Assembly: GCF_009392895.1 (NCBI RefSeq)
Contig: NZ_CP045488.1
Location: forward strand, 2,852,001-2,916,000
Source: Natronorubrum aibiense
GTDB taxonomy: Archaea; Halobacteriota; Halobacteria; Halobacteriales; Natrialbaceae
Direction: 5' to 3'
DNA: 64,000 nucleotides
Below are positions 10,702 through 17,045 of this stretch, one piece after another; positions within the stretch are counted from its first letter, which is position 1; each line of letters opens with the position of its first letter. The notes below the pieces were generated by a model, which was not told the origin of the DNA, searched no databases, and worked only from the letters and a program-made list of their open reading frames with translations. The position numbers and the translations under genes were made by a program.

Positions 10702-11949
10702 TTACTCGTACAGCGGGTTCGCGTCACACAGCGACTCGACGTCCTCGCGGACCTCGGCGAGGACGGCCTCGTCCTCGGGGTTGTCGATGACGCGCGTGAT
10801 CAGGTCGGCGACGGTGCGGCAGTCGTCCTCGTCGAAGCCACGCGTCGTCAAGCCGGGCGTGCCGGCGCGGATGCCCGAGGGGTCAAACGCCGAGCGCGTC
10901 TCACCGGGCACCGTGTTCCCGTTGAGGACGATACCGGCGTCCTCGAGCGCTTCTTCGGCGTCGCCGCCGGAGGTGTCGGGGTGGCTCTCGCGCAGGTCGA
11001 CGAGTACGAGGTGGTTGTCGGTGCCGCCCGAGACGAGCGAGAAGCCGTTCTCGACGAGTTGCTCGCCGAGGGCCTCCGCGTTAGCAACCGTCTGCTCGGC
11101 GTAGTCTTCGAACTCGGGCGCTAAGGCTTCCTTGAAGCCGACGGCCTTGCCGGCGATGTTGTGCATGAGCGGGCCGCCCTGTCCGCCGGGGAAGACCGCC
11201 GCGTCGATGTCGTCGGCGTACTCCTCGTCGCACATGACGATGCCACCGCGACCGGCGCGGATGGTCTTGTGCGTGCTGCCAGTGACGAAGTCGGCGATGC
11301 CGACCGGCGAGTCGTGAACGCCGGCGGCGACGAGCCCCGTGATGTGGGCGATGTCGGCGAGGTGGAGCGCGTCGGCGCTGTCGGCGGCCTCCTGAATGCG
11401 CTCCCAGTCGATCTCGCGTGGGTATGCGGAGTAGCCCGAGACGATGATGTCCGGCTCGAACTCCTCGGCCTGCTCGGCGAGCCCCTCGTAGTCGACGTAG
11501 CCCGTCTCGGCGTCGACTTCGTACTGCTCGACGTCGTAGAGCTGGCCGACGAAGTTCGCCGGATGGCCGTGACTGAGGTGGCCGCCGTGAGTCAGATCCA
11601 GCGAGAGGATCTTGTCGCCGGGCTCGAGCATCGCGAAGTAGACGGCCTGATTGGCCTGCGTGCCCGAGTGTGGCTGGACGTTGACGTGTTCGGCACCGAA
11701 CAGCTCCGTGGCGCGGTCGATCGCGAGCTGTTCGACCTCGTCGGCGTACTCACAGCCGCCGTAGTAGCGCGAGCCGGGATACCCCTCGGCGTACTTGTTC
11801 GTGAGGGCGCTTCCCTGCGCGTCGAGGACGGCCTTCGAGACGTGATTCTCGCTGGCGATCATCTGCAGCGACTCTCGTTGGCGATCTACCTCTCCCTCGA
11901 GTGCATCGGCGACGGCGGGATCGACGTCCCGAACGTGCTCGTGTTCCAT
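10702..11949 (-). CDS. glyA: Serine hydroxymethyltransferase
   Basis: A 415-residue enzyme of family length. It transfers the hydroxymethyl group of serine to tetrahydrofolate, giving glycine and methylene-THF. Motifs include LQMIASENHVSKAV near 28-41, NKYAEGYPGSRYYGGCEYAD near 51-70, the histidine-rich THGGHLSHGH loop, and PLP lysine K228 in TGSTHKTIRAGRGG. The frame runs to 12015, but a TATA box 27 bases before 11949 supports this ATG. It works with FolD, GcvT and GcvH of this window in C1/glycine metabolism. Confidence 0.95.
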   Translation of the reverse strand: MEHEHVRDVDPAVADALEGEVDRQRESLQMIASENHVSKAVLDAQGSALTNKYAEGYPGSRYYGGCEYADEVEQLAIDRATELFGAEHVNVQPHSGTQANQAVYFAMLEPGDKILSLDLTHGGHLSHGHPANFVGQLYDVEQYEVDAETGYVDYEGLAEQAEEFEPDIIVSGYSAYPREIDWERIQEAADSADALHLADIAHITGLVAAGVHDSPVGIADFVTGSTHKTIRAGRGGIVMCDEEYADDIDAAVFPGGQGGPLMHNIAGKAVGFKEALAPEFEDYAEQTVANAEALGEQLVENGFSLVSGGTDNHLVLVDLRESHPDTSGGDAEEALEDAGIVLNGNTVPGETRSAFDPSGIRAGTPGLTTRGFDEDDCRTVADLITRVIDNPEDEAVLAEVREDVESLCDANPLYE

Positions 11950-11970
11950 ATCCGATGTGCCGGCTGGCGG

Positions 11971-11980
11971 CAGTATAAGT
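11971..11980 (-). promoter_or_regulatory. TATA box of glyA
   Basis: The minus strand reads ACTTATACTG, centred 27 bases before the ATG at 11949, giving a leaderless start. Confidence 0.55.
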
Positions 11981-12154
11981 GTACCCGTCTTCGGCGAGAA
12001 GCGCCACGATTTCATACCGCTGCCATCGGTTGCTATCGGATATCGAGCACGAGAACGGTGTCAGTAATCTTGACAATCAATGCCAGCAGTAGATGTGTCG
12101 GAATGAAAACAACCCGATACAACTAACTTTCCCGAGCGACATTCAGCGTATCGA

Positions 12155-14260
12155 ATGATAGAGTGGGGAGTCGACGATCGGGTGCTTCGTGTTACGGACG
12201 CCGATAACACCACGGTGTCAGTTCACGGGGCCGATCTCGACATCGAGGAGTCGGCCCCCGACATCCCACGACCGGTCGAGGAGACGCTCACCGTCACGAC
12301 GGACAAACTCCGGTTTCCACACGCAGTCGTCTACGCGTTCTCGCTCGACTCGAGCGAACGGTACGAACTCGAGCCACGCGGTGCGCCGCTGTCGCTCCCT
12401 GCCGGCGAGTACATCGTCGATATCGATACGGAGATCAAGACGTATCTCCAGTTCTCGGGCACCGCAACGCTCGAGAAGACCGACGACTACGAATCGGTCG
12501 TCGTCTCCTTTCCGGATCGGTATCGCGTGACCGTCGGCTTCCGAAGCCATCACGAACTCCCTGCAGAGACGATCACCGTCACCGACTCTCCCGATGCGGT
12601 CGCGACGGCCATCAGCCATCTTGCGACAGCACACAAGACGGACAGCCCCGACCGCACCTATCCCACGCTTCGTGGGCATCCACCGCTGCTCGAGCGTGGC
12701 AACGCCCTCGAAATTCCGGACCGCCTTCGGGCCGCCCGCTCCGACGCCGGAATCGAGGTCGTCGTCCCGCCGACGTACGACGCGCTGTTCGTCGCCGCGC
12801 CGCTTGCGTACTACCTGCAGGCCACGCTGCGGACGGCAGCCACTCCCGAGGGTGGCCTCGCCCGGCCGCGACTCCGCCTCACCGACCTCGGGATCGAAGA
12901 ACGGCTCTCGCCGATGCCCGACCTCGAGCGCGACGTCGAGCGACTGTTGCGCAAGACGTTCTTTCTCGACTGTCTCGTTCGCAATGCCGGACCCTACGGC
13001 ACGAATCTGGCGGAACAACGCGTCCTCGAGACGCTCGATCTCGACGCTGACGTTCTCTACAACGCCAGTCCACAACAGCGGCTGGCGACCTATCTCGAAG
13101 TGCCCTACGAGGCGATCGAACATCGGCTTCCGGAGTGGCATCTCTCGACGTACGTCGCTCCCGAGTACGACACCGTCGAACAGCTGCCGTTCTTGCTCGA
13201 TCGGCTGAGCATGCTCTACATGCCGCGAACGTCCAAACTCGAGGGAAAGGAATTGATCGAGCGCTCGCTGGCCGATTTCTACCGCGACGGGAACGGGGGC
13301 GGAAGCAGCCACGACAGGGCAAGTGCCAGCAAGGTCGCCTCTGTCGACATCGTCAAACCCGAACTCCGAACCGGACGAGCACACGGCTGGCTCGCGGACG
13401 GCGTGCCGATCGACGTCTTCAAAACCACGCCCGAAGCCTACTACAACCGCCTCGACTACCTCGAGCGGCCAACCGAATCCACGTCAGTCTGTGTCGTCCT
13501 GAACGATCCCGAAATGGCCGGCGAACACGACGAGGTCGCCGAAATCTACCGCCAGCGAGCCGAGGAGTTGTCGATGGACGTCACCGTCGCCGACTCGCTC
13601 TCGACGGCCGAACTCGCGCGCGTCTTCGAACACGAGTACGAGTTCGTCCACTACATCGGCCACTGTGAGAACGGGGGGCTTCGCTGCCCGGACGGCCCGC
13701 TGTCAACGTCGAGTATCGACCGCTGTAACGTCCAGACGTTCTTTCTCAACGCCTGTGGCTCCTACTACGAGGGGATAGAACTGATCGAAAAAGGAAGCGT
13801 CGCCGGCGCGGTGACGTTTACCAAGGTGTTGAACGACCACGCTGTCAAGGTCGGCTCGACGTTTGCGAAACTCCTCGTCAACGGCTACAGCCTCGAGCGA
13901 GCGCTTGGGCTCGCCCGGAGTCGGATCATGATGGGCAAAGACTACGCGGTCGTCGGTGACGGCACGCACTCGCTCGTCCAAAGCGACCACCGACTCCCGA
14001 TTACCATCACCGTCGAAGACCTCGAGGACGGCACCGGCCGATATCTGGTCACGCTCGACTGTTACTCGACGCGCGTGACGGGGTCGTACTACTTCCCACA
14101 CACAGAGGCAAACGAGTTCGCCTATCTCTGCGGGACCGAATCCAGTTTCACGCTCGAGGCGTCGGGCGTCGCCTCGTTGCTGCGCGAAACCGATGCATCG
14201 GTCATCTACGACGGCGACCTCTACTGGTCGGAAACGCTGGCACAGCAGTTTGCACGCTGA
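12155..14260 (+). CDS. CHAT-domain (caspase-like) protein with long N-terminal region
   Basis: A 701-residue protein. Residues about 440-610 resemble the CHAT peptidase fold: VCVVLNDPEM opens the domain, FVHYIGHCENG carries candidate catalytic H503, and TFFLNACGSYYEG carries candidate C534. A following VAGAVTFTKVLNDHAVKVGSTF and the helix LVNGYSLERALGLARSRIM match the CHAT tail. The N-terminal 430 residues are beta-rich then helical and are not TPR repeats. Bacterial CHAT proteins are proteases in defence or cell-death systems; the role here is unknown. No cleavage partner is adjacent: glyA is divergent and an acidic protein is convergent. The start is the first ATG, in frame with halophilic sequence. 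Confidence 0.7.
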   Translation: MIEWGVDDRVLRVTDADNTTVSVHGADLDIEESAPDIPRPVEETLTVTTDKLRFPHAVVYAFSLDSSERYELEPRGAPLSLPAGEYIVDIDTEIKTYLQFSGTATLEKTDDYESVVVSFPDRYRVTVGFRSHHELPAETITVTDSPDAVATAISHLATAHKTDSPDRTYPTLRGHPPLLERGNALEIPDRLRAARSDAGIEVVVPPTYDALFVAAPLAYYLQATLRTAATPEGGLARPRLRLTDLGIEERLSPMPDLERDVERLLRKTFFLDCLVRNAGPYGTNLAEQRVLETLDLDADVLYNASPQQRLATYLEVPYEAIEHRLPEWHLSTYVAPEYDTVEQLPFLLDRLSMLYMPRTSKLEGKELIERSLADFYRDGNGGGSSHDRASASKVASVDIVKPELRTGRAHGWLADGVPIDVFKTTPEAYYNRLDYLERPTESTSVCVVLNDPEMAGEHDEVAEIYRQRAEELSMDVTVADSLSTAELARVFEHEYEFVHYIGHCENGGLRCPDGPLSTSSIDRCNVQTFFLNACGSYYEGIELIEKGSVAGAVTFTKVLNDHAVKVGSTFAKLLVNGYSLERALGLARSRIMMGKDYAVVGDGTHSLVQSDHRLPITITVEDLEDGTGRYLVTLDCYSTRVTGSYYFPHTEANEFAYLCGTESSFTLEASGVASLLRETDASVIYDGDLYWSETLAQQFAR

Positions 14261-14376: not shown

Positions 14377-14503
14377 GAGCGGGGCAGTCTGCGGGCGGGT
14401 GTCTCTCGATTTCGAGCGGTTACGAGAACAGTCGACCGAGCGGGGCAGTCTGCGGGCGGGTGTCTCTCGATTTCGAGCGGTTACGAGAACAGTCGACCGA
14501 GCG
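14377..14503. repeat. 61-bp tandem repeat, two perfect copies
   Basis: The unit beginning GAGCGGGGCAGTCTGCGGGC occupies 14377-14437 and repeats exactly at 14438-14498, followed by the first five bases of a third unit. The second copy includes the last codons and stop of the minus-strand acidic gene; the first copy lies downstream of that stop. Confidence 0.95.
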
Positions 14504-15473
14504 TCGCGCGGAGCCAGCCCAGCAGGCCCGTGGCGCCGCCATCGTCCGCAGTCGCCTGCGACTTCGCGTTTTCGTCGGCGCTGCGAGTTGCATCGGCCGT
14601 TTCGGGGGCGGTATTCGATTCGACCTCGGCGGTTGCCGTCGTACCCTCGGTATCGGCGGTTGCAACTGCCAAATCATGCTCGTCCGGCGATCTGTCACTC
14701 GAGGGTGCGTCGGCTGGCTCGGGCGCGTCCGACTCGGGTTCCGACTCGACGAAATTGCGTTCGGCCTTACTCGAGTCAGCAACGGAATCGGATTCCGACT
14801 CAGCAGCGTCCGACGCTGGCTCGGCATCGGTGTCTGCTGTCGACTCGATGTCGGCCACAGCTGTCGGTTCGATGTCCTCCTCGGCCGTTGGTTCGACGTC
14901 GGCCGCAGCGACGGATTCACCGTCATCGACAACTCCTGAGTCGGCAGCCTCGTCGGAGGCTGGCTCGACGGCGGGTGCAGCGGTCGATTCGGTGTCGTCA
15001 GACGTCGGCTCGTCGGTCTCGACAGCTGTCGACGCAGTAGGTTCGTCGGCCTCGGCAGCGTCGTCCGAATCGATCCAGAGGAACTCCTGTTCTTTCGTTC
15101 GATCGGTCAACAGCAGTTCCTCGAGTGCGCCATCATCGACGAACAGGTCGTCGTCGGCCGTCTCGGGCTCCGGTTCGTCCGCGGTCGCGATGATGTCCTC
15201 GGGACTGTCGCCCTCGAGGATATCGTCGACGTCGTCGGCCGTGGACTCGCTGTCCTGGAGGTTGCCGAACACGGTCGCGGCCGTCTGGTCTTCGACATCG
15301 CCGTCGGACGGCTTTTGCTCGTCGTCCGTCGATTCCGACTCGTCCGTCGCCTCCCCGTCGACCGGCTCTCCCTCCGGTATCCCCTCCTCGAGGTCCCCGA
15401 ACAGATCGTCGGCCGCCGATCCGACGTCGAGTGCCCCGTCACTCGAGTTCGTATTTATCGTGCTATCAGTCAT
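14481..15473 (-). CDS. Very acidic, low-complexity protein with hydrophobic C-terminal tail
   Basis: A 330-residue protein. Residues 1-135 have some sequence complexity (DLFGDLEEGIPEG, DDVDDILEGDSPEDIIATAD, LLTDRTKEQEFLWIDSDD). Residues 135-310 are almost only Asp, Glu, Ala, Ser, Thr, Val and Pro, so likely disordered. The last 13 residues, TGLLGWLRATLGRLFS, form an amphipathic or membrane-touching helix. I do not recognise the family. An SD-like AAGGAG sits just before the ATG and an AT-rich TATA box lies about 25 bases upstream, supporting this start over the frame start at 15959. It is convergent with the CHAT gene. Confidence 0.65.
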   Translation of the reverse strand: MTDSTINTNSSDGALDVGSAADDLFGDLEEGIPEGEPVDGEATDESESTDDEQKPSDGDVEDQTAATVFGNLQDSESTADDVDDILEGDSPEDIIATADEPEPETADDDLFVDDGALEELLLTDRTKEQEFLWIDSDDAAEADEPTASTAVETDEPTSDDTESTAAPAVEPASDEAADSGVVDDGESVAAADVEPTAEEDIEPTAVADIESTADTDAEPASDAAESESDSVADSSKAERNFVESEPESDAPEPADAPSSDRSPDEHDLAVATADTEGTTATAEVESNTAPETADATRSADENAKSQATADDGGATGLLGWLRATLGRLFS

Positions 15474-15794
15474 AGACTCCTTCCATGATAATATATAATC
15501 GCATGACTTTAACTTTCGGAATTTTTTCACCACAGATGAACAAGACTGATACCCTATTAGTGTGACGGCCGTTTCCCCGGGTCGACGTAGGTAGAAGTTT
15601 ACGTTTGTATAAAAATATACTTCTTGAGTGAGATTGCCGGCATTCGAAAGAGCATTCCCCGATAGCGAGCGTGATACCGTTCGAACGGAAGGGAACGGCC
15701 GAAACGGGAAACAGGACACAGCGCTGTTCGGACGCTGGGTCTGAGAAACCGGCACAAACCCTATTACTCGCCGTGATGAACTCCAGAAGTTGCT
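15474..15794. other. Divergent promoter region
   Basis: This 321-base gap separates the acidic-protein gene from the RuBisCO gene. It holds the minus-strand TATA box near 15496 and, on the plus strand, a weaker CCCTATTACTCG near 15757-15768, about 30 bases before rbcL. AT content is higher than in the genes. No reading frame looks real. Confidence 0.5.
15491..15501 (-). promoter_or_regulatory. TATA box of the acidic-protein gene
   Basis: The minus strand reads CGATTATATAT about 25 bases before the ATG at 15473. A purine-rich AAGGAG follows close to the start, which is less usual among the leaderless genes here. Confidence 0.5.
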
Positions 15795-17045
15795 ATGACT
15801 GGCATCGAATATGACGACTTCCTCGACCTCGAGTACGAACCCACGGCGACGGATCTCGTCTGCGAGTTTACGATCGACCCCGCTGACGGGATGTCGACGG
15901 AGGCGGCGGCGAGCCGGGTCGCCTCGGAGTCCTCCAACGGAACGTGGGCCGCGTTGCACGTCGACGAGGACGAACTGACCGATCTAAGCGCGGTTGCGTG
16001 TGCGATCGACGGCCACGAGATCACCGTTGCCTACCCCGAAGCCCTGTTCGAAACAGGAAGCATGGCCCAGATCCTCTCGTGTATCGCGGGCAACATCATG
16101 GGGATGAAAGCGGTCGAGACGATCCGCCTCGAGGACTGCCACTGGCCCGAGCCCATCGTTTCCGGCTTCCCCGGCCCGCAGTTCGGGACCAGCGTCGCCC
16201 ACGAGAAACTCGACGCAGGCGAACGACCGATCCTCGCGACGGTCCCCAAACCGAAAGTCGGGCTCTCGACGGACGCCCACGTCCAGATCGGCGAAGACGC
16301 CTGGCGCGGCGGCGTCGACCTGCTGAAAGACGACGAGAATCTCACCGATCAGTCGTTCAACCCCTTCGAGGACCGACTCGCCGACAGCCTCGCCGCTCGA
16401 GACCGTGTCGAAGAGGACGTCGGCGAGCGGAAGGATTACCTCGTGAACGTGACCGCGGAGACGAACGAGATGTTAGAGCGCGTCGACCTCGTGGCCGAAC
16501 ACGGCGGCGGCTTCGTCATGGTCGACGTGATCACCAGCGGCTGGGCAGCCGTCCAGACGGTCCGCGAGCGCTGCGAACGACACGACCTCGCGATCCACGC
16601 CCACCGCGCCATGCACGCGGCCTTCGACCGTCTCGAGCACCACGGCGTCTCGATGCGCGTGCTCGCTCAGATCGCCCGCCTCTGTGGTGTCGACCACATC
16701 CACACCGGCACCGCCGGGCTGGGCAAACTCGCGAACGAGGATACACCGGGGATCAACGAGTGGCTCACGTCGGACCTGTACGGGATGACCCCGGTCCTGC
16801 CCGTCGCCTCCGGCGGCCTCCACCCCGGTGTCGTCGACCAGTTACTCGACGCACTCGGCACGGACATCATCGTCCAGGCCGGTGGCGGCATCCACGGCCA
16901 TCCCGACGGCACGCACGCGGGCGCGAAAGCGCTTCGGCAGTCGGTCGAGGCGAGCCTCGAGGGCGTCTCGCTCGACTCCTACGCCGACGAACACGACGAG
17001 TTGGCGACGGCGCTCGAGAAGTGGGGATCGGAGACGCCGCGATAG
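15795..17045 (+). CDS. rbcL: Ribulose-bisphosphate carboxylase, archaeal type III
   Basis: A 416-residue RuBisCO large chain, shorter than plant forms as usual for archaeal type III. Active-site segments are intact: TVPKPKVGL with proton-abstracting K152, GGVDLLKDDENL with carbamylated K178 and metal ligands D180 and E181, IHAHRAMHAAF, loop 6 in HTGTAGLGKLAN, and ASGGLHPG. In archaea this enzyme works with AMP phosphorylase and ribose-1,5-bisphosphate isomerase to turn nucleotide ribose into 3-phosphoglycerate, rather than in a Calvin cycle. Those two partner genes are not in this window. It is convergent with the next hydrolase gene, four bases apart. Confidence 0.93.
   Translation: MTGIEYDDFLDLEYEPTATDLVCEFTIDPADGMSTEAAASRVASESSNGTWAALHVDEDELTDLSAVACAIDGHEITVAYPEALFETGSMAQILSCIAGNIMGMKAVETIRLEDCHWPEPIVSGFPGPQFGTSVAHEKLDAGERPILATVPKPKVGLSTDAHVQIGEDAWRGGVDLLKDDENLTDQSFNPFEDRLADSLAARDRVEEDVGERKDYLVNVTAETNEMLERVDLVAEHGGGFVMVDVITSGWAAVQTVRERCERHDLAIHAHRAMHAAFDRLEHHGVSMRVLAQIARLCGVDHIHTGTAGLGKLANEDTPGINEWLTSDLYGMTPVLPVASGGLHPGVVDQLLDALGTDIIVQAGGGIHGHPDGTHAGAKALRQSVEASLEGVSLDSYADEHDELATALEKWGSETPR

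Follow-up and report, generated by a model that had tools for sequence, protein, structure and literature searches.

The described proteins closest to the haloarchaeal protein reported here (P0001) are SAVED-CHAT of type III CRISPR systems (8tl0), TPR-CHAT/Csx29 (Craspase), gingipain R (family C25) and separase (family C50), each of which has its catalytic fold in common with P0001. SAVED-CHAT also aligns at the LNAC motif, but P0001 carries other N-terminal domains and is encoded by a core chromosomal gene; Pfam matched no SAVED domain in it, the fold search aligned the CHAT part only, and no CRISPR genes were noticed next to the P0001 gene. Relative to TPR-CHAT/Csx29, P0001 lacks TPR repeats and does not lie beside a Cas7-11 gene. 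Gingipain R is secreted, whereas P0001 is probably cytosolic and has different flanking domains, and separase is far longer, with an alpha-solenoid and a securin/cohesin context that P0001 does not have. Both gingipain R and separase cleave after basic residues. CHAT proteins from other archaea of the phylum match the catalytic domain by hhalign, with His and Cys aligned, but the N-terminal region of P0001 gives them no match.

The catalytic domain is of an already known kind (CHAT, clan CD). What is new is a family outside the Pfam model, its N-terminal architecture, its near-universality in Halobacteria, its division into three clades, and a pseudo-protease clade linked to histidine kinases. 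A literature search for CHAT together with haloarchaea, Halobacteria or Haloferax returned no paper, a weak sign of novelty since subscription papers were thinly covered.

A haloarchaeal gene for a CHAT-type protein

The window, which is the whole 64,000-nucleotide stretch of DNA analysed here, contains the gene and its predicted parts as follows.

10702-12015, minus strand: glyA (serine hydroxymethyltransferase), the divergent upstream neighbour
12155-14260, plus strand: coding sequence of the CHAT-type protein P0001 (701 aa, clade A), from its ATG start, codon comparison and whole-length homologues
12155-12580, plus strand: residues 1-142, a predicted beta-sandwich with weak topological likeness to half of a galactose-mutarotase-like sandwich (AlphaFold of 1-440)
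12590-13474, plus strand: residues 146-440, a predicted mixed alpha/beta domain (alignments and predicted structure)
13472-13978, plus strand: residues 440-608, the predicted catalytic CHAT/caspase-fold domain (VIA, Foldseek, hhalign)
13523-13525, plus strand: codon of E457, which lies in the helix that follows strand 1 and aligns near a conserved Glu of CHAT domains (alignments)
13649-13651, plus strand: codon of H499, first His of HYIGHC, kept in 118 of 120 members (family alignment)
13661-13663, plus strand: codon of H503, predicted catalytic His (conservation and profile alignment)
13754-13756, plus strand: codon of C534, predicted catalytic Cys nucleophile (conservation and profile alignment)
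13985-14257, plus strand: residues 611-701, a small, less conserved C-terminal alpha/beta domain (predicted structure and alignment)

Comparison with orthologues at 71-83% identity gave dN of 0.10-0.18 and dS of 0.56-0.90 (NG86), hence a dN/dS of about 0.2, and third codon positions were approximately 2.5-3.5 times richer in changes. This purifying selection in orthologue codons identifies 12155-14260 as a real gene and not a chance frame. The encoded protein has neither signal peptide nor transmembrane stretch (maximum 19-residue hydropathy 1.32) and, having no hydrophobic segment, is probably cytosolic. Pfam returned no match to P0001 at E 10, the CHAT model included, and a genome search with Pfam CHAT gave 0 matches. 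Likewise, PADLOC had no model that matched P0001 and NCBIfam none that matched it meaningfully, and the family had no match among the phage records searched.

The catalytic domain

AlphaFold modelled P0001 with a pLDDT of 88.9 and a pTM of 0.89 from an 83-sequence alignment. In Foldseek, the best matches of the catalytic domain were SAVED-CHAT (1.8e-8), separase (3.6e-7) and gingipain (5.3e-6). VIA returned the same folds together with Craspase: gingipain RgpB with Z 18.6 over 240 residues, SAVED-CHAT 8tl0 with Z 18.5 over 168 residues (rmsd 2.3 Å, model residues 440-608), separase with Z 17.5 over 225 residues, and Craspase TPR-CHAT with Z 13.8 over 208-231 residues. The HYIGHC motif starts at residue 499, which places its histidines at H499 and H503, and LNACGS starts at residue 531, which places its cysteine at C534. 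DSSP assigns strands to 497-501 and 528-532, ahead of H503 and C534. The model has the caspase-haemoglobinase alpha/beta fold, in which the His follows strand 3 and the Cys follows strand 4 in an HxxxH...(L)xxC context, as is characteristic of CHAT and clan CD.

For profile comparison, 20 true CHAT domains were gathered from PF12770 loci of other members of the phylum. The P0001 family aligned with them by hhalign at a probability of 97.4 and an E-value of 1.1e-11, compared to 0.42 for an unrelated control alignment. The alignment pairs HYIGHC with the CHAT HxxxH and LNAC with LSAC, and the sole two invariant columns of the CHAT set (H157/C221) are those of H503 and C534. Sequence models recover the relationship less readily. 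Searched alone against solved structures, P0001 gave noise, and a profile search of the same structures ranked SAVED-CHAT first but weakly (E 0.15). The Pfam CHAT model matches 15 of 48 divergent family members (best 1.9e-5), so that most haloarchaeal members fall below it, and Peptidase_C25 matches 3 of 48, weakly; P0001 itself has no Peptidase_C25 match and no hydrophobic N-terminus. We describe the family as divergent CHAT-like, outside the Pfam model, because P0001 does not reach the curated cut-off of PF12770.

Overall, the predicted structure and the profile alignment identify residues 440-608 as a clan CD caspase-like domain of the CHAT type. A preliminary description of this DNA had proposed such a domain at about 440-610, with H503 and C534 as its catalytic pair, and had suggested comparing a predicted structure with CHAT and caspase folds; residue numbering, profile alignment and the caspase-like fold that the prediction returned all agree with it.

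The N-terminal region

The same description found no TPR repeats ahead of the catalytic domain, and this holds; nor does the region belong to a recognised family. Pfam has no match there, the prediction is a beta-sandwich followed by a mixed alpha/beta domain in place of helical repeats, and fold and profile comparisons give no clear known match. Modelled alone, residues 1-440 reached a pLDDT of 89.3, and Foldseek found nothing for them below E 0.01. For residues 1-142, the best structural Z was 8.9 over 126 residues, near background, and homology to mutarotase-like or YidC periplasmic domains is accordingly not claimed. The alpha/beta domain (146-440) contains near-invariant R173/H175-P176-P177 and P326-x-W328 and a disordered insert at about 363-393; residues 136-422 gave only weak matches, to Clostridioides Cwp6 and Cwp8 (Z 8.3 and 8.1), near chance level. 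Several structural-match rows of the full-length model start near residues 143-208. When the 1-440 model was searched by itself, no caspase-type fold was returned that would indicate a pseudo-caspase half within 146-440, as occurs in separase and gingipain, and CHAT profiles showed no match to the region in their N-terminal half. We regard it, from these models, as an unrecognised domain arrangement and not as a proven new fold.

Distribution and clades

A species scan recovered 70 loci, all haloarchaeal, and the family occurs in 271 of 292 Halobacteria genomes (93% of the sample) and 68 of 77 genera. A phylum-wide profile search added relatives in four genomes, all from a single further taxonomic family (E 1e-78 to 1e-90); of three frames read from these relatives outside Halobacteria, two keep His and Cys, whereas both residues are lost in the third. 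The source genome has three members, namely P0001 and two paralogues near C1:950,000. Plasmid copies exist, every one of them less than 60% identical to P0001. In NCBI annotation most members are "hypothetical", and only a few are called "CHAT domain-containing" or "caspase family".

Haloarchaeal members fall into three clades, each monophyletic at support 99. Clade A is that of P0001, a single-copy gene between glyA and tbsP; clade B includes the Haloferax copy; and clade C is sister to clade A (support 93). Both H503 and C534 are kept by 111 of 120 members, while eight lack both and one lacks only the Cys, and these nine form one clade (clade C, support 99). Homologues lacking both residues, which the preliminary description took as a potential argument against catalysis, are thus limited to this pseudo-protease clade and one methanogen-side relative. 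All 75 haloarchaeal members outside clade C retain H503, C534, N532, M454, E457, F529, T554, A563 and Y597, and the eight clade C members of the same alignment have lost nearly all of this constellation, E457 included. Joint loss in clade C and full retention elsewhere in the haloarchaeal alignment is the pattern expected of an active site that was relaxed once.

At locus L093 (4601-11540, minus strand), three CHAT paralogues that are catalytically dead stand in tandem; a histidine kinase-like match adjoins them on the same strand, and their genome (G019) has 13 family matches in all. Two divergent pairs of a clade C pseudo-protease and a kinase lie beside purA (adenylosuccinate synthetase-like, by sequence) at L092 and L097, in different genomes.

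Genomic neighbourhoods

Clade A loci are strongly syntenic. The upstream glyA is conserved at 72 of 79, and tbsP follows on the same strand at 74 of 79, mostly 160-850 bp (about 400 bp) from the CHAT stop to the tbsP start. The earlier statement that no target gene lies beside P0001 is therefore correct for the window and does not extend to the family. In the source genome, tbsP is located at C1:3126472, approximately 260 kb from the CHAT gene, and its usual place is taken by a RuBisCO gene together with an acidic ORF. Elsewhere, in Haloferax and other genomes, some of which have no family member at all, glyA and tbsP are adjacent with no CHAT gene between them. These empty sites mark a point of insertion or loss and indicate that tbsP does not need the CHAT protein; an obligate partnership with tbsP is unlikely in view of them.

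Several other features of these regions were observed. Just downstream of the CHAT gene, at window positions 14377-14500, a sequence of about 62 bp (gcggggcagtctgcgggcgggtgtctctcgatttcgagcggttacgagaacagtcgaccga...) is perfectly duplicated head to tail, in the spacer and into the end of the convergent acidic ORF. The product of that ORF (14484-15488, minus strand) is about 335 aa long, very acidic and probably disordered, and carries GLLGWLRATLGRLFS at its C-terminus; it belongs to no Pfam family and has homologues at at least four other loci (L001, L004, L006 and L033). The gene at 15795-17045 (plus strand) encodes an archaeal RuBisCO large chain (Pfam RuBisCO_large, 4.7e-83). In many loci outside the window's family (L043-L066), a gene for a YcaO protein of about 580 aa follows tbsP.

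Clades B and C adjoin signalling genes. A DUF7504 gene lies upstream of 13 of 34 clade B members, typically less than 100 bp away, and a HalX-domain response regulator adjoins eight of the 34; the Haloferax copy has a DUF7504-HalX cassette. Histidine kinases are abundant in haloarchaea. A same-strand GAF/PAS histidine kinase adjoins all seven clade C loci, compared to 1 of 32 in clade B and 0 of 79 in clade A. The difference between clades C and B (Fisher p 5e-7) is no more than indicative, five of the histidine kinase queries having come from clade C loci.

Proposed function and alternatives

We propose that P0001 acts in the cytosol as a cysteine endopeptidase of CHAT type (clan CD), from clade A of a core haloarchaeal family for regulatory proteolysis, a reading of sequence and model that we hold with slightly better than even confidence. 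That the protein is an active peptidase is likely on the same grounds; that its role is regulatory signalling, as opposed to death or defence, is on balance probable. We favor a regulatory protease because the active site is intact, inheritance is vertical, the protein appears cytosolic, and its paralogues lie beside two-component genes. For clade A, the signalling role is carried over by analogy from these paralogues, as no signalling gene adjoins the clade A copy. In the mechanism that we envisage, the N-terminal beta-sandwich and alpha/beta domain would sense a ligand or partner and hold the protease off until a signal opens them; Cys534, activated by His503, would then cut a small number of substrate proteins, perhaps a single one, at a defined site, and this cleavage would switch a metabolic or stress programme. 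The clade C proteins, whose active site is erased, may serve as pseudo-protease adaptors to the histidine kinase of their operon.

The preliminary description instead pointed to programmed cell death or phage defence, and neither fits well with a near-universal, vertically inherited and syntenic family whose paralogues adjoin two-component genes. A role in cell death is possible by general analogy with CHAT proteins and caspases. The Haloferax genus group is relevant to this question; we identify it as Haloferax because its PCNA is identical at 245 of 247 positions to 3HI8/3IFV, the H. volcanii PCNA. Each of the 14 listed genomes of the group has exactly one family member, and both members read have an intact active site (HYIGH, LNAC). 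Extracts of H. volcanii show strong caspase-like activity that is blocked by caspase inhibitors, is linked to the stress response and has no assigned gene, and archaeal genomes were reported to lack clear caspase homologues (PMC3615174). The family could supply this LEVD/VEID/IETDase activity as an executioner of programmed death, but we consider this unlikely. Growing cells already have the activity at a very high basal level, other proteases could produce it, and the residue fixed near the active site of the family is the acidic E457 and not a basic one. Furthermore, nothing in the analysis points to specificity for Asp at P1, and gingipain R and separase, among the closest folds, cut after basic residues; we rate the link to caspase activity low for these two reasons.

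Defence would require that a phage-triggered partner activate the protease to kill or arrest the cell, as in Craspase and SAVED-CHAT. CRISPR-associated proteases are indeed among the closest CHAT folds, and some paralogues reside on plasmids, but the absence of PADLOC and phage-record matches, the fixed chromosomal site between housekeeping genes in most genera, and a presence in 93% of sampled genomes, unlike the patchy and mobile pattern of defence genes, make such an effector quite improbable. Conservation of tbsP on the same strand, about 400 bp downstream at 74 of 79 loci, could alternatively mean that the protease cleaves TbsP or steers one-carbon/glucose metabolism through it. This partnership is also unlikely, given that the genes are too far apart to be tightly co-transcribed, that glyA and tbsP adjoin without CHAT in Haloferax and other genomes, and that the source genome keeps its CHAT gene conserved with tbsP 260 kb away. 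Finally, the family tolerates complete loss of the dyad, both in clade C and in one non-halobacterial relative, and P0001 might be a non-proteolytic scaffold or transferase despite its conserved active-site residues. We find this improbable as well, since the constellation was lost together only in clade C and is retained by every other haloarchaeal member of the alignment.

Implications

A broader and highly speculative extension of regulatory proteolysis would join these observations into a proteolytic branch of haloarchaeal two-component signalling. It would consist of an ancient CHAT-like family with active copies (at the glyA/tbsP site and in the DUF7504-HalX cassette) and a kinase-linked pseudo-protease clade, and would also be the source of haloarchaeal caspase-like activity. 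The family offers a first candidate gene for that long-reported activity, and, with one copy per Haloferax-group genome, deletion of one gene would suffice to test the link. A regulatory role would carry CHAT proteases beyond defence and death into apparent housekeeping signalling, for which the sister pseudo-protease clade provides a natural control.
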